Part shown: positions 17,515 through 24,592 of the stretch, piece after piece
Layout: every line of letters begins with the position of its first letter
Position numbering within the stretch: the first letter of the stretch is position 1
Assembly: GCF_030696885.1 (NCBI RefSeq)
Contig: NZ_JAUYRI010000024.1
Span: forward strand, 62,001 to 126,000
Direction of reading: 5' to 3'
DNA: 64,000 bases
From: Thiobacillus sp.
GTDB lineage: Bacteria > Pseudomonadota > Gammaproteobacteria > Burkholderiales > Thiobacillaceae
Position numbers and translations under genes: made by a program
Notes under the pieces: generated by a model
The model's database searches: none
The model's input: the letters and a program-made list of their open reading frames with translations, nothing else
What the model was told of the DNA's origin: nothing

Positions 17515-18471
17515 CTAAGCTGGGCGCGCAGGGAAGTTCAGGCGGTCGTAATAGCGGCCGCGATAGAGCAGGCGGCGGTGTTCCGGCGAATCGGAAAATG
17601 CGCTACGGGTGTGCAGCACGTTGTTGCAGAGGAGGCCCATGCCGGGTTGCAGGCGCGCGGTCAGGATGTATTCGGAGCCGGCGAGGATGTCGGCCAGGAC
17701 CTTGACTGCCGCTTGCGTCGCCGTGTCGGCCTTCCACACGATCGAGCGGGTGCGTGCAGTGTAGCGCATGGTCAGAAAGCCCAATTCGGGATCGACCGCG
17801 AACACCGGGCCGCTCTGCTCGGCACGGGCAATTGATGGATTATGGCCCGGCGATTGCTCCCTCGCCCCCTGGGAGAGGGTTGGGGAGAGGGGTGACTCGT
17901 CCATGCGCGCGGGAATGGTCATCGCGTCGGGCTGCATCAAGGCGGCGATGTAATCGGGATTGGCGTCACGCAGCTGGATGTAGGCGATCTCGTGGTCGAG
18001 CAGCGCGTTCTCACCGCCAGCCTCGGCGTCCTGCACGCAGTGCAGCATCATCCCAAGAATGCGGCGGTCGAGCGTGTTGTAGTAGCCGTCGGTGTGCCAG
18101 TTGATCGGCTTGTGGGTGTAGGGAATAAAGTCGCCGCGCACGCCGCTGTCTTCGTCGGCGGCCGGGGTGATGCTGGACAGCCCGTCTTCGTCGGCCAGGT
18201 AGTTGCCTTCGAGCCGCACCAGGCCGAGTTGCTGGCCGAGTTGTCTGGGGATCGACTTGTCGGCGGCGGCCAGGTGCGGCGCGCTGTAGATCACCATGTT
18301 GGCGCGTGCGCAGCACGCTTCGAGGGCGGAAATTTCCGCGGTCGTGAGATGGCGTGGATCGGCCAGCGGCACGATCAGTTCGTCAACGCTGCGCGGATAT
18401 GCGGCGAGCCTGGCGTCGCGCCAGGCGCGGTAGCCGGATTCGTTGGCGAGATCGAAAGGGGACGCGGCCAA
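17515..18471 (-). CDS. TauD/TfdA-like Fe(II)/2-oxoglutarate dioxygenase
   Basis: About 318 residues with the metal-binding facial triad of this superfamily: HTD (His126, Asp128) in INWHTDGYYN and a distal His in CNNVLHTRSAF. The 2-oxoglutarate-binding Arg lies in HRRLLYRGRYYDRLN. The substrate is unknown; relatives act on sulfonates and other small molecules. I place the start at the TTG at 18471, four bases after the stop of the upstream gene; a longer start at 18528 would overlap that gene. Residues around 205-235 come from a REP-like repeat inserted in frame (17856-17895), so that loop is absent from the core fold. Confidence 0.75.
   Translation of the reverse strand: MAASPFDLANESGYRAWRDARLAAYPRSVDELIVPLADPRHLTTAEISALEACCARANMVIYSAPHLAAADKSIPRQLGQQLGLVRLEGNYLADEDGLSSITPAADEDSGVRGDFIPYTHKPINWHTDGYYNTLDRRILGMMLHCVQDAEAGGENALLDHEIAYIQLRDANPDYIAALMQPDAMTIPARMDESPLSPTLSQGAREQSPGHNPSIARAEQSGPVFAVDPELGFLTMRYTARTRSIVWKADTATQAAVKVLADILAGSEYILTARLQPGMGLLCNNVLHTRSAFSDSPEHRRLLYRGRYYDRLNFPARPA
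17856..17895. repeat. REP-like GC-rich repeat inside the dioxygenase gene
   Basis: The stretch with CTCGCCCCCTGGGAGAGGG followed by TTGGGGAGAGGGG is of the CCCTCTCCC / GGGAGAGGG kind dispersed between genes of many proteobacteria. Here it lies within an open reading frame and is translated as SPLSPTLSQGARE-like sequence, apparently without breaking the frame. Confidence 0.6.
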
Positions 18472-18475
18472 GGAT

Positions 18476-19096
18476 TTATTCCGGCGGCAGCATGTCCGGT
18501 GAACCAAAGCCCCGCTTGACTGGTGCATCGGACAGCAGGCCCTTGAAGCTTTTGCGCACCGTGCCCATCATTTCGGGCATCTCGATGTCCATGATCTGGT
18601 CCATGATCCAGGTCTTGTCGCTATCGCCCATCTCGTCGCGGATCTGCAGGCTGAGGAAGCGCAGCGCCGGGAAGCTGGCTTTTTCCTCATCCGGGAACTC
18701 GAACTCGGCGTAGTCGTTGAAGCGGCGGTTCAGAAAGTCGATGAACTCCGCCTTGAAATTGCGATTGCCGTCCGGGCCGACCACGCTGATGATGTTTTCT
18801 TCCATCAGTTCGCCCAGCCGCTTGGCCACCGCCTGCAGCACCGCGGTGCGGCGCTCCGGCGTCAGCGTAGCGTAGGCCATACGGTCGCAGTAGTGCACCA
18901 GGAAAGCGAGGAATTCGGCGATCAGCTTGAAGCCGCGCGCCGGCGTGATGATGTCGTAGTTTTCGCGGCCGAGGTTGTCCACCGCCTTGTCGGCGACGCG
19001 CCAAGTGGTGGTGGCCACCGCAGTGGCGATTTCCTCGGCGCTGCGCTCGCCGTCTTTCTTGAACCAGATGGTGCGGACTCTGACGGGTTTGACCAT
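18476..19096 (-). CDS. Conserved-looking 206-residue protein of unknown function
   Basis: A 206-residue soluble protein starting MVKPVRVRTIWFKKDGERSA, with a strong AAGGAGC ribosome site before the ATG at 19096. It is mostly helical and charged, without signal peptide, membrane segment or metal motif; a single Cys occurs in FLVHYCDRM. I do not recognise a family. It lies between a sulfurtransferase gene and a TauD-like dioxygenase in the gene set divergent from dsr, which hints at a link to sulfur metabolism but nothing more. Confidence 0.75.
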   Translation of the reverse strand: MVKPVRVRTIWFKKDGERSAEEIATAVATTTWRVADKAVDNLGRENYDIITPARGFKLIAEFLAFLVHYCDRMAYATLTPERRTAVLQAVAKRLGELMEENIISVVGPDGNRNFKAEFIDFLNRRFNDYAEFEFPDEEKASFPALRFLSLQIRDEMGDSDKTWIMDQIMDIEMPEMMGTVRKSFKGLLSDAPVKRGFGSPDMLPPE

Positions 19097-19124
19097 GGTG
19101 TGCTCCTTACTATGCAGCGGTGCG

Positions 19125-19973
19125 TTATTCGCCGGTGGCGACGGGGCGGGCGGGTTCGGTGATCCACTCGCTCCACGAGCCGGGATACAGCCGTGAACCG
19201 GGAAGCCCGGCGATTTCCATCGCCAGGATGTTGTGGCAGGCGGTGACGCCCGAGCCGCACATGTGGAGCACCTGCCAAGCCGGCTTGCCCTTGAGCAAAG
19301 CCTGGTAGTTCTCGCGCAGCGCCTCGGGCGGCAGGAAGGTGCCGTCGACGTCGAGATTCTCGTCGAACGGGTAGTTGATGGCGCCGGGAACGTGGCCGGC
19401 AACGGGGTCGAGCGGCTCGAACTCGCCGCTGAAGCGGCGATCCGGTCGCGCGTCGATGATGAGTTGTTCGCCGGTCTTCGATGCGTGCAGAACGTCATCG
19501 GCGGCCACGATTTGAGTCGGCTCGGGCAGGCAGGCGCAAGCGCCCCGGTGCGTTGCCGGGATGTCGGCATCGACCGGGCGTTTTTCGCGTGTCCATTTCG
19601 GGTAGCCGCCGTCCAGCAGGGCGACGCCGGGGTGGCCGAGCCAGCGCATCATCCACCACAGGCGGACGGCCATGGCGCCGTAGCTGTCGTCATACACCAC
19701 CACCTGCTTGTTGACGCCGACGCCCCACGCGCAGAGTTTTTCGGTCAGCACGCGCGGATCGGGCAGCGGATGCCGTCCGGTGCCCGATCCGACGGGGGCG
19801 GACAGGTCGTCGTCCAGATGCACGTAGCGTGCACCCGGGATGTGTGCTTTCTCGTAGGCCTGTCGACCGGCGCTGGGGTCGGTGAGGGTGAAACGGCAAT
19901 CCAGAACGATCCAGTTCGGATCATCCAGATGCGCGGCCAGGTCTTCAGTGGTAACGAGGGTGTTGGAAAACAT
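19125..19973 (-). CDS. sseA: 3-mercaptopyruvate/thiosulfate sulfurtransferase (two rhodanese domains)
   Basis: A 282-residue tandem rhodanese. The N-terminal domain (1 to about 140) is inactive-type with Asp in VVVYDDSYGAMA. The C-terminal domain has the active loop HMCGSGVTA with Cys239. CGSGVTA is the loop typical of 3-mercaptopyruvate sulfurtransferases, though thiosulfate activity cannot be excluded. The family transfers sulfane sulfur to acceptors; in a sulfur oxidiser it may feed the TusA/DsrE-type relay. It lies two genes from a DsrC paralogue in the same minus-strand set. Confidence 0.9.
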   Translation of the reverse strand: MFSNTLVTTEDLAAHLDDPNWIVLDCRFTLTDPSAGRQAYEKAHIPGARYVHLDDDLSAPVGSGTGRHPLPDPRVLTEKLCAWGVGVNKQVVVYDDSYGAMAVRLWWMMRWLGHPGVALLDGGYPKWTREKRPVDADIPATHRGACACLPEPTQIVAADDVLHASKTGEQLIIDARPDRRFSGEFEPLDPVAGHVPGAINYPFDENLDVDGTFLPPEALRENYQALLKGKPAWQVLHMCGSGVTACHNILAMEIAGLPGSRLYPGSWSEWITEPARPVATGE

Positions 19974-19983
19974 AGGTTGGGAA

Positions 19984-20064
19984 CTAGGCGCTAGGAAATA
20001 GGAATTAGGGGCTAGGGCCAGCGCTGAGCCCCCTGGATCCTAGCCCCTAGATCCTAGTCCCTAA
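19984..20064. repeat. CTAGG-rich simple and inverted repeat between sseA and the DsrC-like gene
   Basis: Repeated CTAGG/TAGGA words (about 19984-20016) are answered by CCTAGCCCCTAGATCCTAG (about 20038-20058), giving an imperfect inverted repeat with TAGGGGCTAGG as the best-matching arm. It fills the whole gap between the two genes. It may fold in RNA, but there is no T run to make it a classic terminator. Confidence 0.65.
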
Positions 20065-20397
20065 TCAGTATCCGCCCTTGCCGAAAGGCTTGGGCAGGCC
20101 GGCGACGCGGCAGCCCTGGCGGGCAGGCATGTTGGGGAACAGCTCGTACAGCTTCTTCTTCCAGTCCACGCCTTCATGCATCTCGTCGAGTTCGGCGACC
20201 ATGTTGCGGAAGTTGGGGGTCTGGCCGTCTTCACGGTACTTGTCGCGCAGGTAGTTGATGACCTGCCAGTGCTCGTCGGTCAGCGTGATTTTTTCAGCCT
20301 CGGCGATGACCGGGGGGACATCGTCGCTGAAGTTGGCTTCCAGCAGGAAGTTCTCTTCACCGGTTTCGAGCTCTTCGCCGTTAACAACATAAGACAT
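20065..20397 (-). CDS. DsrC/TusE-family protein lacking the penultimate Cys
   Basis: A 110-residue DsrC-family paralogue with the family core (LTDEHWQVINYLRDKY...NM..EL) and a C-terminal arm GCRVAGLPKPFGKGGY. The upstream Cys of the arm is kept (Cys96), but the penultimate Cys that carries persulfide in DsrC is replaced by Gly-Gly-Tyr. True DsrC in this window (25346-25681) ends CKIAGLPKPTGCI with both cysteines. This variant therefore cannot form the DsrC intramolecular disulfide or trisulfide, and a regulatory or adaptor role (the RspA-type idea) is an inference. It sits between sseA and a Cas6-like gene. Confidence 0.88.
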   Translation of the reverse strand: MSYVVNGEELETGEENFLLEANFSDDVPPVIAEAEKITLTDEHWQVINYLRDKYREDGQTPNFRNMVAELDEMHEGVDWKKKLYELFPNMPARQGCRVAGLPKPFGKGGY

Positions 20398-20452
20398 GCT
20401 TTCTCCTTTCAGGGTGGGTGGTTAAAGATTCGCCGGCAAGCCGGCTAGGGGT

Positions 20453-21061
20453 TTAATGGTTGACCGGCATGACCGGTGCAATGGATTTATGCGGGATGAA
20501 AATCCCGCAGCCTAACAAACGGTTGCGTCCCATGCCTTCGTCCTGCAGCTGCAGGGACTTGTGCGGCGGCACGTCGTGCAGCATCAGACTATAGCCATGG
20601 ATCGGGCCGGACGTGGTTTGCAGGGTTTGCAACCTGCCGCAGATAAACCCGCAGCGGATCTGGAAATGGCCGTCCAGTTCGCGCATCACGTCCTGCACGA
20701 ATTGTTCTTCAGTGGCGCTGCCGGTGTCAACGAAATGCGCGTAGATATTGGCGAACGCGGTGAACGCGCGGGTCTTGAAGCTGCCGAGCTGCAGGGTATG
20801 CCCGGCCAGATCGAGCGTCTGCCCGATCATTTTCTGCATGTCGTCGACCCGGGTCTTGGGCACGCGCAGGTACAGCTTGGTGCGCCGGTTGATGTTCAGC
20901 GTCGCGTCGCCTTTGTTGGTTTCGGCGCCTTTCAGGTGCTGGATGCCGGTGCCGCCCTCTTCGCCCAGCCATGGCAGCAGGTGCAGCAACGCGTCGGACA
21001 GCAGTTGCGCATTGTCGGTCGGGATGGTCGTGCCGACCAGATCGAACTGCAGGTCGATCAT
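20453..21061 (-). CDS. Cas6/Cmx6-like RAMP protein, stand-alone
   Basis: A 202-residue protein resembling the Cas6/Cmx6 (type I-MYXAN) family. It has an N-terminal strand MIDLQFDLVGTTIPTD, two further ferredoxin-like units and a C-terminal glycine-rich loop GMGRNRLLGCGIFIPHKS of the kind that contacts crRNA repeat hairpins. His27 and His42 are candidate catalytic residues by position only. No repeat array or other cas gene is in the window. The ATG at 21061 has GGAGGA 13 bases upstream; a GTG at 21109 would overlap the stop of the 73-residue gene (GTGA) and add 16 residues. Genes around it are sulfur-related. Confidence 0.68.
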   Translation of the reverse strand: MIDLQFDLVGTTIPTDNAQLLSDALLHLLPWLGEEGGTGIQHLKGAETNKGDATLNINRRTKLYLRVPKTRVDDMQKMIGQTLDLAGHTLQLGSFKTRAFTAFANIYAHFVDTGSATEEQFVQDVMRELDGHFQIRCGFICGRLQTLQTTSGPIHGYSLMLHDVPPHKSLQLQDEGMGRNRLLGCGIFIPHKSIAPVMPVNH

Positions 21062-21105
21062 GTGGGGGGTGTATTCCTCCGGCTTGTTTTCAGGCCAGTC
21101 CCAGG

Positions 21106-21327
21106 TCACGGTGCATCCCCGGCGTTGTCCTTCGCCCAGGCCTGCATCAGGTCGGCCCACTTCTGTGCGCTGACCGGGTCGACGTCGAAAATGGTGAAAC
21201 GCTTGTTTTCGCGGATGCGGATGCGCAGAAACGGCACCCCGCCCGACTCGTGGGTCAGGTGCTGGAACTCGATTTCCTGACCGCCAAACGGCAGTCGCAT
21301 CTTGTCTAGGGGCGTAATTTCGGGCAT
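21106..21327 (-). CDS. 73-residue protein of unknown function, first gene divergent from dsrA
   Basis: A small acidic/basic soluble protein (MPEITPLDKMRLPFGG...). It looks like a compact beta-rich fold with a C-terminal helix (SAQKWADLMQAWAKD). There is no Cys, metal motif or signal peptide. I do not recognise it. The ATG at 21327 is used because the longer frame upstream reads through promoter-like AT-rich sequence. It is 45 bases before the ATG of the Cas6-like gene (or overlaps its alternative GTG), so the two are probably coexpressed. Confidence 0.65.
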   Translation of the reverse strand: MPEITPLDKMRLPFGGQEIEFQHLTHESGGVPFLRIRIRENKRFTIFDVDPVSAQKWADLMQAWAKDNAGDAP

Positions 21328-21686
21328 GGATTCAATTCGTGTCGCGTCTAAAGGTGGCGGATGCACTGCATGCCATGCGTCCAGATGGGTGCAGCGCCCG
21401 GCGCTTCAACCCTGCTGAGCACAGGGGCTTGCGTTTGCAACAATATTTTAATACTCTTATCGATTCTTGTGACCGGGCTGTAATGTCTCACCCTTTGCGA
21501 GAATGAGGCATTACCGCGTTGGGGCAAATGATCTACTCCTTTTGGGTAGGTTCATACCTACCTCAAGGGAGTAACCGATTTACCCATGAGAATGATGGTG
21601 GCGTCGGTGCCAAGTCAATACGATGTTGGAATACCGTTGGGCCATTCGGCTGAGCGGGCATTTCGAAATGTTCTAGGAGAGAAGAG
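21328..21686. promoter_or_regulatory. Divergent control region between the 73-residue gene and dsrA
   Basis: This 359-base gap has no gene. It includes an AT-rich block (about 21436-21470) in otherwise GC-rich DNA, probably a promoter area, and a 40-bp dyad at 21534-21573. Just before dsrA is an AGGAGAG ribosome site (about 21675). I could not assign confident -35/-10 elements. Confidence 0.6.
21534..21573. promoter_or_regulatory. 40-bp imperfect dyad upstream of dsrA (candidate operator)
   Basis: Inner arms GGTAGGT (21545-21551) and ACCTACC (21556-21562) flank TCAT. Outer arms TACTCC (21534-21539) and GGAGTA (21568-21573) are placed symmetrically, with five unpaired bases on each side. The symmetry fits a dimeric regulator such as a MerR- or ArsR-type protein, or a leader hairpin in the dsr mRNA. 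Confidence 0.6.
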
Positions 21687-22991
21687 ATGGCAAAGCAAAT
21701 GATTGATACGCCCAATCTGGACGAGCTCGAGAAAGGCCCGTGGCCCAGCTTCGTGACCGGCCTCAAGCGTCTGGCTAAAGATAACGACATGATGGTTGAC
21801 CTGATGGGTCAGCTGGAAACCTCCTACAAGACCAAGTTCGGTTACTGGAAGGGCGGTACGGTCGGTGTGTTCGGCTACGGCGGCGGCGTGATCCCCCGTT
21901 TCACCGAACTGAAGGACGAGAACCACAAGCCCCTGTTCCCCGAGTGTGCTGAGTTCCACACGCTGCGTATCCAGCCGCCTGCCGGCATGCATTACAGTTC
22001 CGACCTGCTGCGCAAGATGTGCGACGTCTGGTCCGCCACCGGTGGTTCGGGCCTGATCGCGTTCCACGGCCAGTCCGGCGACATCATGTTCCAGGGCATC
22101 AAGACTGCTGACGTGCAGCCCGCGTTCGACGCCTTCAACGAAATGGGTTTCGACCTCGGCGGTGCCGGTCCCGCACTGCGTACCTCGATGTCCTGCGTTG
22201 GCGCTGCCCGCTGCGAAATGTCCTGCTACGACGAAGCCAAAGCTTTGCGCACCGTCATCAACAACAACCTGGACGACATGCACCGTCCGTCCCTGCCGTA
22301 CAAGTTCAAGTTCAAGTTCTCCGGCTGCCCGAACGACTGCGTCAACGCGATCCAGCGTTCCGACATGGCAACGATCGGCACCTGGCGCGACAACATCCGC
22401 GTCAACGAAGGTCAGGTTCAGGCCTACTACAAGGCCCACGGCATGAACGATCTGGTCAACGACGTGATCAGCAAGTGCCCGACCAAGGCCATCACCCTGG
22501 TGGCTTCCGACAAGTTCAAGGCCAGCGCAACCGTTTCCGCTGCCAGCCTGGGCGACGGCAACACCCTGTGCATCGACAACAAGAATTGCGTGCGCTGCAT
22601 GCATTGCCTCAACGTGATCCCCGGCGGCCTGCTGCCCGGTAACGACAAGGGTGTGTCGATCCTGGTCGGTGGCAAGGGCGTGCTGAAGATCGGCGCGACC
22701 ATGGGCACCGTGGTGATCCCGTTCATGAAGCTCGAGTCCGACGAAGACTTTGAAAAGCTGAACGAGCTGGCCCGCAACATTCTCGACTTCTTCGCGGAAA
22801 ACGCGCTGGAGCACGAGCGTACCGGCGAAATGATCGAGCGTATCGGCCTGACCAACTTCCTCGAAGGTCTGGACATCCCGGTTGATCCCAACATGATCAA
22901 AGAGCCGCGTTCCAACCCCTACTTCCGTTCCGACGACTGGGACGAGCAGGTCGAGAAATGGAACGAGTACAAGCAGTCGACTGCTGCTTGA
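21687..22991 (+). CDS. dsrA: Reverse-type dissimilatory sulfite reductase, alpha subunit
   Basis: A 434-residue alpha subunit of the cytoplasmic alpha2beta2 siroheme enzyme that oxidises DsrC-bound sulfur to sulfite in sulfur-oxidising bacteria. The siroheme/[4Fe-4S] cysteines are in SCVGAARCEMSCYDEAK and SGCPNDCVNA. An additional ferredoxin-type cluster motif CVRCMHCLNVIPGG lies near residue 300. Length is as expected. The start has a strong AGGAGAG site. It opens the dsr operon; the gene order dsrABEFHCMKLJOPN is that of sulfur oxidisers, and dsrEFH is absent from sulfate reducers. Confidence 0.97.
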   Translation: MAKQMIDTPNLDELEKGPWPSFVTGLKRLAKDNDMMVDLMGQLETSYKTKFGYWKGGTVGVFGYGGGVIPRFTELKDENHKPLFPECAEFHTLRIQPPAGMHYSSDLLRKMCDVWSATGGSGLIAFHGQSGDIMFQGIKTADVQPAFDAFNEMGFDLGGAGPALRTSMSCVGAARCEMSCYDEAKALRTVINNNLDDMHRPSLPYKFKFKFSGCPNDCVNAIQRSDMATIGTWRDNIRVNEGQVQAYYKAHGMNDLVNDVISKCPTKAITLVASDKFKASATVSAASLGDGNTLCIDNKNCVRCMHCLNVIPGGLLPGNDKGVSILVGGKGVLKIGATMGTVVIPFMKLESDEDFEKLNELARNILDFFAENALEHERTGEMIERIGLTNFLEGLDIPVDPNMIKEPRSNPYFRSDDWDEQVEKWNEYKQSTAA

Positions 22992-23001
22992 GTTTCGCTT
23001 G

Positions 23002-23033
23002 CCGCGGGTCTCGGTGCGAGCCCGGACCCGCGG
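23002..23033 (+). other. GC-rich hairpin between dsrA and dsrB
   Basis: CCGCGGGTC (23002-23010) pairs with GACCCGCGG (23025-23033), a 9-bp stem with a 14-base loop and no T tract. It lies within the 82-base gap, so it is probably an mRNA stability or processing element rather than a terminator. Confidence 0.7.
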
Positions 23034-23073
23034 ATTAATTAGCTTCGCGCATTAAACCAGTTGGAGATAAATC

Positions 23074-24144
23074 ATGGCAGAACTACGTCCGCCTATCGAA
23101 TCCGGCGCACCGGATCCGATGCCCTACATGCACCCCGTGATGGTGAAGAACTATGGCAAGTGGGCTTTCCACAGCCATCCGAAGCCGGGTGTCCTGTATC
23201 ACCGCGCTGAATCCGGCGACGAAATCTGGACCGTCAAGGCCGGTACGGCACGCCAGATGGACCACTACACCATCCGCGAGCTGGCCGACATCGCCGACCA
23301 GTTCGGTGACGGTTTCGTGCGTTTCACCGCGCGTTCCAACATCGAATACATGGTTGCCGACGGTTCCAAGGTCGAGCCGCTGATCAAGGCACTGAACGAC
23401 AAGGGCTACCCCATCGGCGGTACCGCCAACTCGGTGTCGATGATTGCGCACACCCAGGGCTGGCTGCACTGCGACATTCCCGGCACCGACGCTTCCGGCG
23501 TGGTGAAGGCGCTGATGGACGAACTGTACGATGACTTCGTCAAGTGCGAGATGCCCAACCGCGTCAAGCTGTCCACCTCCTGCTGCGAAATCAACTGTGG
23601 CGGCCAGGCCGACATCGCGATCATCGTTCAGCACACCAAGCCGCCGAAGATCAACCACGATCTGGTCGCCAACGTCTGTGAGCGTCCCTCCGTCGTGGCA
23701 CGTTGCCCGGTGGCTGCAATCCGTCCCGCACTGGTGAACGGCAAGCCCTCGCTGGAAGTCGACGAGAAGAAGTGCATCTGCTGCGGCGCCTGCTTCCCGC
23801 CCTGCCCGCCGATGCAGATCAACGATCCCGAGCACTCCAAGATTGCGATCTGGGTGGGTGGCAAGAACTCCAACGCCCGTTCCAAGCCGACCTTCCACAA
23901 GCTGGTCGCTGCCGGCCTGCCGAACAACGCACCGCGTTGGCCGGAAGTGGGCGAAGTGGTCAAGAAGATCCTCGCCACCTACAAGGAAGACGGCAAGCCG
24001 TGGGAGCGCATGATCGACTGGATCGACCGCATTGGCTGGCCCGCATTCTTCGAGAAGACCGGCCTGCCCTTCACCAAGTATCACATCGATAACTGGCGTG
24101 GTGGTCGTGCCAACCTGAACGCGTCCGCGCACATCCGCTTCTAA
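23074..24144 (+). CDS. dsrB: Reverse-type dissimilatory sulfite reductase, beta subunit
   Basis: A 356-residue beta subunit partnering DsrA. It has the sirohaem-domain cysteine motif TSCCEINCGGQADI and the ferredoxin insert CICCGACFPPCPPM. The N-terminal region (1-60) is the DsrB/DsrA paralogue fold. A GGAGAT ribosome site lies before the ATG. In the complex only one type of siroheme is usually catalytic. It follows dsrA after an 82-base gap with a hairpin and is followed by another before dsrE. Confidence 0.97.
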   Translation: MAELRPPIESGAPDPMPYMHPVMVKNYGKWAFHSHPKPGVLYHRAESGDEIWTVKAGTARQMDHYTIRELADIADQFGDGFVRFTARSNIEYMVADGSKVEPLIKALNDKGYPIGGTANSVSMIAHTQGWLHCDIPGTDASGVVKALMDELYDDFVKCEMPNRVKLSTSCCEINCGGQADIAIIVQHTKPPKINHDLVANVCERPSVVARCPVAAIRPALVNGKPSLEVDEKKCICCGACFPPCPPMQINDPEHSKIAIWVGGKNSNARSKPTFHKLVAAGLPNNAPRWPEVGEVVKKILATYKEDGKPWERMIDWIDRIGWPAFFEKTGLPFTKYHIDNWRGGRANLNASAHIRF

Positions 24145-24164
24145 GCGATTTGGATGCTGTCAGC

Positions 24165-24189
24165 GCCGCCGCAGCCTGTCTGCGGCGGC
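24165..24189 (+). other. GC-rich hairpin between dsrB and dsrE
   Basis: GCCGCCGCAG (24165-24174) pairs perfectly with CTGCGGCGGC (24180-24189) across a five-base loop CCTGT. It lacks a T run, so readthrough is likely. It may shield the dsrAB part of the mRNA or be a processing site. Confidence 0.75.
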
Positions 24190-24232
24190 CGCTTGATAAC
24201 AATGACTGGATTTTTCGGAGTTAGAGCTAGCC

Positions 24233-24592
24233 ATGCAATTCGGCATTCTTGTAAACGAAGGGCCTTACACCCATCAGGCCAGTGACACCGCTTATCTCTT
24301 CGCCCGTACGGCGATCGAGAAGGGCCACACCGTCCCGCGCGTTTTTTTCTACCACGACGGCGTGAACAACTCCACGCGTCTGGCAACGCCCCCGCAGGAT
24401 GATCGCAACGTTTCGGCACGCTGGTCCAAGCTGGCTGCAGAACACGGCGTCGATCTGGTTGTCTGCGTGGCGGCTGCGCAGCGTCGCGGCATTAACGACG
24501 ATGTGCTGGCACCGGGTTACCGGATTTCCGGTCTGGGTCAGCTGGTTGAAATGGGCATTCAGTACGACCGTCTCGTGACGTTCGGCGATTGA
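24233..24592 (+). CDS. dsrE: Sulfurtransferase subunit DsrE
   Basis: A 119-residue subunit of the cytoplasmic DsrE2F2H2 hexamer, a TusBCD homologue. The essential persulfide-carrying Cys78 is at the expected position in VVCVAAAQRRGI. DsrEFH passes sulfur to DsrC, and its presence marks the oxidative direction of the pathway. It starts the dsrEFH trio 88 bases after dsrB. Confidence 0.95.
   Translation: MQFGILVNEGPYTHQASDTAYLFARTAIEKGHTVPRVFFYHDGVNNSTRLATPPQDDRNVSARWSKLAAEHGVDLVVCVAAAQRRGINDDVLAPGYRISGLGQLVEMGIQYDRLVTFGD

Follow-up and report, generated by a model that had tools for sequence, protein, structure and literature searches.

The Cas6-family gene opposite dsrA

A stretch of Thiobacillus sp. 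DNA of 64,000 nucleotides (the window) carries, divergent from the dsr genes, a gene for a protein of the Cas6 family, which is the subject of this analysis. The initial annotation had described a Cas6/Cmx6-like gene beside a DsrC paralogue and a sulfurtransferase, with dsrA opposite, and this is indeed the arrangement found, dsrA beginning at 21687. As set out below, it is very likely that the protein belongs to a domesticated clade of Cas6 that is bound to dsr. It is a steady companion of dsr also where cas1 was not found, and was probably co-opted to handle RNA in sulfur metabolism. The features of the locus are listed by position in the window, with counts for the Thiobacillus-like and the distant loci that were compared (aa, amino acids).

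17515..18528, minus strand: TauD/TfdA-like 2-oxoglutarate dioxygenase, common in the divergent cluster
18476..19096, minus strand: conserved 206-aa protein without assigned function, its C-terminal part having relatives in 35/117 distant loci
19125..19973, minus strand: rhodanese-type (3-mercaptopyruvate-like) sulfurtransferase, from profile searches
20065..20397, minus strand: DsrC-like paralogue (PF04358, 107.3 bits), which has the upstream Cys but lacks the penultimate one
20453..21109, minus strand: Cas6-family protein of the dsr-linked type, 218 aa, GTG start, Asn33 at the usual catalytic His
21106..21327, minus strand: DUF6967 small protein, 73 aa (PF22295, 107 bits), overlapping the Cas6 start by 4 nucleotides
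21687..22991, plus strand: dsrA, in opposite orientation to the Cas6 group
23002..23033, plus strand: dsrA-dsrB intergenic hairpin, the leading candidate RNA target
23074..24144, plus strand: dsrB
24165..24189, plus strand: dsrB-dsrE intergenic hairpin; stem of at least 7 base pairs (bp) in 33/34 Thiobacillus-like and 9/67 distant loci

The family assignment is firm, as a profile search gave 204.7 bits for PF09559 (cut-off 26.7) and 223.6 bits for TIGR02807 (cut-off 98.85), both far over the curated cut-offs. The double RRM-like fold of Cas6 was recognized in the alignment and in a structural model, and the Gly-rich loop GMGRNRLLGCGIF is present, with G192, G194, G200 and G202 kept in 111-115 of the 115 aligned dsr-type sequences. 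W5, R76 and R82 are found in all 115 and G158 in 114 of these; R82 is shared with the cyanobacterial Cas6 sequences, and W5, R76 and G158 are constant residues of the dsr type itself. The catalytic His of published Cas6 enzymes lies in helix 1 or just ahead of it (PMC3652601, PMC3150331). A His after the first strand is present in 113/114 distant dsr-type members and in 6/6 cyanobacterial sequences; the window copy has Asn33 at this place, and cleavage by it is therefore doubtful. Among the 48 Thiobacillus-like loci the position is Asn in 39, Ser in 6, His in 1 and unreadable in 2. The loss does not extend to the whole family of the window: in sequences read by eye, His is present in one further member of the family (L202) and in two loci of the same order (L203 and L204), and Tyr in L205. 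Purifying selection acts on the Thiobacillus-like Cas6 genes, with a median dN/dS of 0.149 (1016 pairs, 49 sequences; 0.092 for dsrA).

The start of the Cas6 gene is embedded in a GTGA overlap, which combines the TGA stop of the 73-aa DUF6967 gene with the GTG start of Cas6. In one betaproteobacterial genome (G620; L204 6228-7115, minus strand) DUF6967 and Cas6 occupy a single open frame of 295 aa, suggesting a fusion. A Thiobacillus-like Cas6 (89% identity) was also seen in a record labelled as a Rhizobium sp. metagenome-assembled genome (L008), which is perhaps mislabelled. No relative turned up in phage records.

Distribution of Cas6 with dsr and CRISPR genes

The main sample consisted of 369 genomes drawn from the class (Gammaproteobacteria, Betaproteobacteria included). 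PF09559 was found in 118 of them, dsrA in 112 over the cut-off (119 when partial genes are included) and Cas1 in 135. Cas6 and dsrA are present together in 111 genomes and absent together in 243, with Cas6 only in 7 and dsrA only in 8, which corresponds to an odds ratio of about 480 (p 7e-75), a p-value that overstates the independent evidence because the genomes are related. Of the 15 exceptions, several are located at the end of a contig: TauD is cut by the contig end in G127 and G186, and dsrA stands at the contig start in G070 and G079. In a further exception, G211, about 3.9 kb upstream of dsrA are visible and Cas6 is not there. The proposed survey of gene neighbourhoods across sulfur oxidizers revealed a conserved divergent linkage, as 82 of the 84 cases with Cas6 and dsrA on the same contig are divergent with a gap of less than 5 kb. 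Some Cas6-containing genomes hold two copies of dsrA, the second of which does not adjoin a Cas6 gene (L240-L245).

Within the family of the window, Cas6 was found in 41/46 and dsrA in 39/46 genomes. All those with dsrA have Cas6, the five that lack Cas6 all lack dsrA, and two genomes (71% and 81% complete) have Cas6 but no dsrA match. In a sample from the phylum, 53 of 398 genomes contained dsrA, and Cas6 accompanied it in 5/5 of those from the window's order and in 0/48 of those from other classes. Genomes of only 1.0-1.1 Mb still carry the gene, as do culturable Thiobacillus. Cas6 thus characterizes the dsr lineage of the Gammaproteobacteria, the betas among them. That Cas6 is a chance neighbour without a role in sulfur oxidation is scarcely credible and was rejected, considering that the co-occurrence extends to Cas6 genes remote from dsr and that the absences of Cas6 and dsrA are coupled in the window's family.

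Another question is whether the protein is a stand-alone Cas6 that processes CRISPR RNA for arrays elsewhere in the genome. It scores as a type I-MYXAN Cas6/Cmx6, beyond its own group the proteins most closely related to it are CRISPR proteins, and 50 of the 118 Cas6-containing genomes have Cas1, arrays not having been searched genome-wide. However, the other 68 have no Cas1 match, and the association between Cas6 and Cas1 is not significant (50/118 versus 85/251 in the remaining genomes, p 0.13). The window's own genome (3.0 Mb, 99.83% complete) has no Cas1 and no Cas5 (PF09704), other cas families not having been searched; it has a single PF09559 match, and its Cas3-core matches are all below the cut-off. 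The maintenance of the gene in genomes of 1.0-1.1 Mb points the same way. We therefore rejected processing of CRISPR RNA in trans, which we regard as very improbable. The earlier statement that the 64-kb window contains no CRISPR array was borne out by the lack of short-period, CRISPR-like direct repeats in the window, arrays elsewhere in the genome not having been searched. The near-perfect co-occurrence with dsrA, the lack of a significant link to Cas1, the divergent linkage and the purifying selection thus strongly support the earlier proposal of a domesticated Cas6.

No paper linking Cas6 with dsr was found in the literature searched. In the available portions of PMC5944118 and PMC5728499 both terms occur, with cas6 mentioned only under CRISPR; that of PMC10952691 contains a cas gene list and no such link, and none appears in those of PMC4164917, PMC3397948, PMC11406059, PMC6397845, PMC11636981 and PMC3368242.

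Companion genes and the dsrA-dsrB hairpin

Companion genes were counted in distant loci in which the flank concerned spans at least 1.8 kb. Upstream of Cas6, these encode a 64-aa protein (88/104), TauD (74/104) and a 235-aa protein (40/104), and downstream a DsrC-family protein (83/107) and a 69-aa protein (49/107). The 64-, 69- and 235-aa proteins matched no Pfam or NCBIfam family, and a profile comparison of the 64-aa family with DUF6967 was weak (probability 12%). The DsrC-like protein had been described as having a Cys-less tail. This is true of its end (PFGKGGY), from which the final Cys has gone, but it retains the upstream Cys (QGCRVAGLPKP), so that the two-Cys pattern of DsrC is incomplete. 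The distant tails read ..AGLPESRRKGGY or similar; among the 53 that fit the pattern the upstream Cys is never present and 51 have no tail Cys at all, and the 37 others all end in KGGY, six with a Cys at another place. For the Thiobacillus-like loci 26/48 tails were readable, 20 of them with the upstream Cys.

The suggestion that Cas6 works with the DsrC-like protein is supported at the level of gene neighbourhood only. Alternatively, the protein might no longer act on RNA and might use its Cas6 fold as a scaffold on which the DsrC-like protein and the small cluster proteins assemble. The constancy of the downstream DsrC-family gene and of the upstream 64-aa gene would fit this, as would the absence of redox cysteines from the DsrC-like copy in the majority of the distant loci that could be read, and the loss of the His in Thiobacillus-like genomes. 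Nevertheless, nearly all distant members have preserved the Gly-rich loop as well as the catalytic His, neither of which would be required of a pure scaffold, and we consider this explanation unlikely.

Cas6 genes away from dsr often keep the 64-aa, DsrC-like and 69-aa genes (e.g. L158 and L160). The dsr loci of another class (L206, L208-L210) contain TauD, 64-aa and DUF6967-like genes, with no Cas6 and no DsrC-like gene within the approximately 4 kb fetched upstream; these genes may therefore be older or wider companions of dsr than Cas6. In Allochromatium vinosum the additional DsrC-like genes are at loci not adjoining the dsr cluster (PMC3368242), and the arrangement may thus not hold in that organism.

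The two hairpins that had been noted, at 23002-23033 and 24165-24189, are present as claimed. The dsrB-dsrE hairpin is largely limited to Thiobacillus-like loci. The dsrA-dsrB hairpin is recurrent, as was seen when spacers of at least 25 nucleotides were compared with mononucleotide shuffles, with 28 of the 48 dsrA-containing genomes of other classes included. It exceeds the shuffles in 28/32 Thiobacillus-like and 46/67 distant Cas6-linked loci and in 2/2 betas, compared with 2/22 other-class loci without Cas6, 1/2 gammas in which Cas6 was not found and 0/5 second dsr copies. Hairpins of at least 9 bp occur in 38 of the 67 distant Cas6-linked spacers, or 7.13 per kb, versus 0.08-1.05 per kb inside genes and 3.25 in the dsrB-dsrE spacer. 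Across 31 Thiobacillus-like sequences 8 of the 9 pairs have changed on both sides; no shuffle attains the observed covariation values, which related sequences can give too, and every covariation measure falls when the pairing partners are slid. Among 52 distant hairpins GGGG is confined to the 5' arm in 18 and to the 3' arm in 2. Only 3 of the 52 look like terminators, and the window hairpin was not among the terminator-like sites in a promoter and terminator scan of 18400-24500. Rfam gave no family at the gathering threshold between 15000 and 45000.

Several observations weigh against the dsrA-dsrB hairpin as the target of Cas6. Taken singly, neither of the two window spacers folds better than its dinucleotide shuffles do (z -1.17 and -1.26). 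Of 16 Cas6-containing genomes in which dsrAB is separated from Cas6 by more than 40 kb or by a contig boundary, only 5 have a hairpin that passes; some of these separations are mere contig breaks, and the rate is below that of the linked loci (p 0.009). Strong hairpins exist in two loci of another class that have no Cas6 (L208, L209), and Thiobacillus-like genomes retain the hairpin but not the His. Moreover, the association of hairpin and Cas6 is confounded by descent, because both follow the gammaproteobacterial dsr type, and the genomes underlying all p-values are related. The idea of the hairpin as a necessary partner of Cas6 was accordingly not upheld for loci where the two are apart. The earlier proposal that the protein processes or controls the dsr mRNA remains compatible with a recurrent, covarying hairpin that is concentrated in Cas6-linked loci; the 11/16 unlinked genomes that fail the shuffle test speak against it, and the Asn makes cleavage by the window copy doubtful.

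Another possibility is that the domesticated, dsr-linked Cas6 acts on a different RNA: a tRNA, an rRNA, a small RNA or another message of the sulfur-oxidizing state. Cas6 is retained where the dsrA-dsrB hairpin is weak or absent. In family f111, where Cas6 is far from dsr and without its usual partners, it adjoins genes for RNase III and an Era-like protein (L189 by Pfam, L193 by resemblance), and elsewhere its neighbour is an rRNA methylase gene, or obgE is close by. In addition, members of the DsrC/TusE family have a connection with the thiolation of tRNA. A candidate RNA was nevertheless not found, and the housekeeping neighbours vary by lineage and may be there by chance. We regard this alternative as possible but rather doubtful.

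Proposed role and relation to known systems

The distribution and the linkage show a CRISPR-independent Cas6 clade that appears to have been recruited in the Gammaproteobacteria, Betaproteobacteria included, as a near-constant companion of oxidative dsr. Since the fold of Cas6 is kept, along with its Gly-rich loop and a nearly universal His, the protein most likely binds hairpin RNA and, in most lineages, also cuts it. An action on hairpin RNA is likely, and the dsr message is our leading guess for the target. As an overall explanation we tentatively prefer a CRISPR-independent companion of dsr that acts on the dsrA-dsrB hairpin of the dsr mRNA. Binding or cutting at this candidate substrate would determine how stable the dsr mRNA is or how it is processed, with the adjoining DsrC-like and small proteins taking part. 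Considering the replacement of His by Asn or Ser, the protein of the Thiobacillus-like lineage is probably an RNA-binding protein or a slow nuclease, and that of the window probably binds rather than cuts. More speculatively, Cas6 might be a dedicated post-transcriptional regulator that, with the cysteine-less DsrC and the small proteins, recognizes the hairpin and couples dsr expression to the sulfur state, by binding only in the Thiobacillus lineage; we would not call this probable.

If true, this would be a widespread non-CRISPR use of a Cas6, fixed beside the core energy metabolism of sulfur-oxidizing Gammaproteobacteria, and an overlooked companion of a textbook pathway. It also serves as a warning, as such genomes are often annotated with a 'CRISPR-associated' gene where CRISPR may be absent.

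Of the known systems, the DsrC/TusE family includes the DsrC-like neighbour by score (PF04358/TIGR03342), although the C-terminal Cys pair of DsrC is not complete in it. A Cys-less 'RspA' group is a further close counterpart of this neighbour, although it was not found in the literature searched. With respect to Cas6 itself, Sso1437 of Sulfolobus is still active without the usual catalytic His, which the window copy lacks too, but it processes CRISPR RNA (PMC3652601). The Cas6 of a type I-B CRISPR-associated transposon (PDB 8fcj_B) was, unlike the dsr type, solved inside the Cascade complex of a transposition system.

The closest relatives outside the dsr type are the type I-MYXAN Cas6/Cmx6 proteins (TIGR02807/PF09559), for example of cyanobacterial plasmids (NZ_CP023280, NC_011737), which are annotated as the same TIGR02807-type product and match the dsr type in the alignment at the Gly-rich loop and at the His that follows the first strand. 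Five of the six cyanobacterial genes have cas3, cas8/cmx8, cas7 and cas5 annotated beside them, the one from Gloeobacter being the exception. The latter plasmid (L198 5977-8175) shows an annotated Cas6/Cmx6 near a PAPS-reductase-family gene, with no annotated cas genes within the 12.6 kb shown. The dsr type, in contrast, is not accompanied by these cas genes, has W5, R76 and G158 as constant residues of its own, and in a quick tree its 128 sequences form a group separate from the six cyanobacterial ones with a support of 97.
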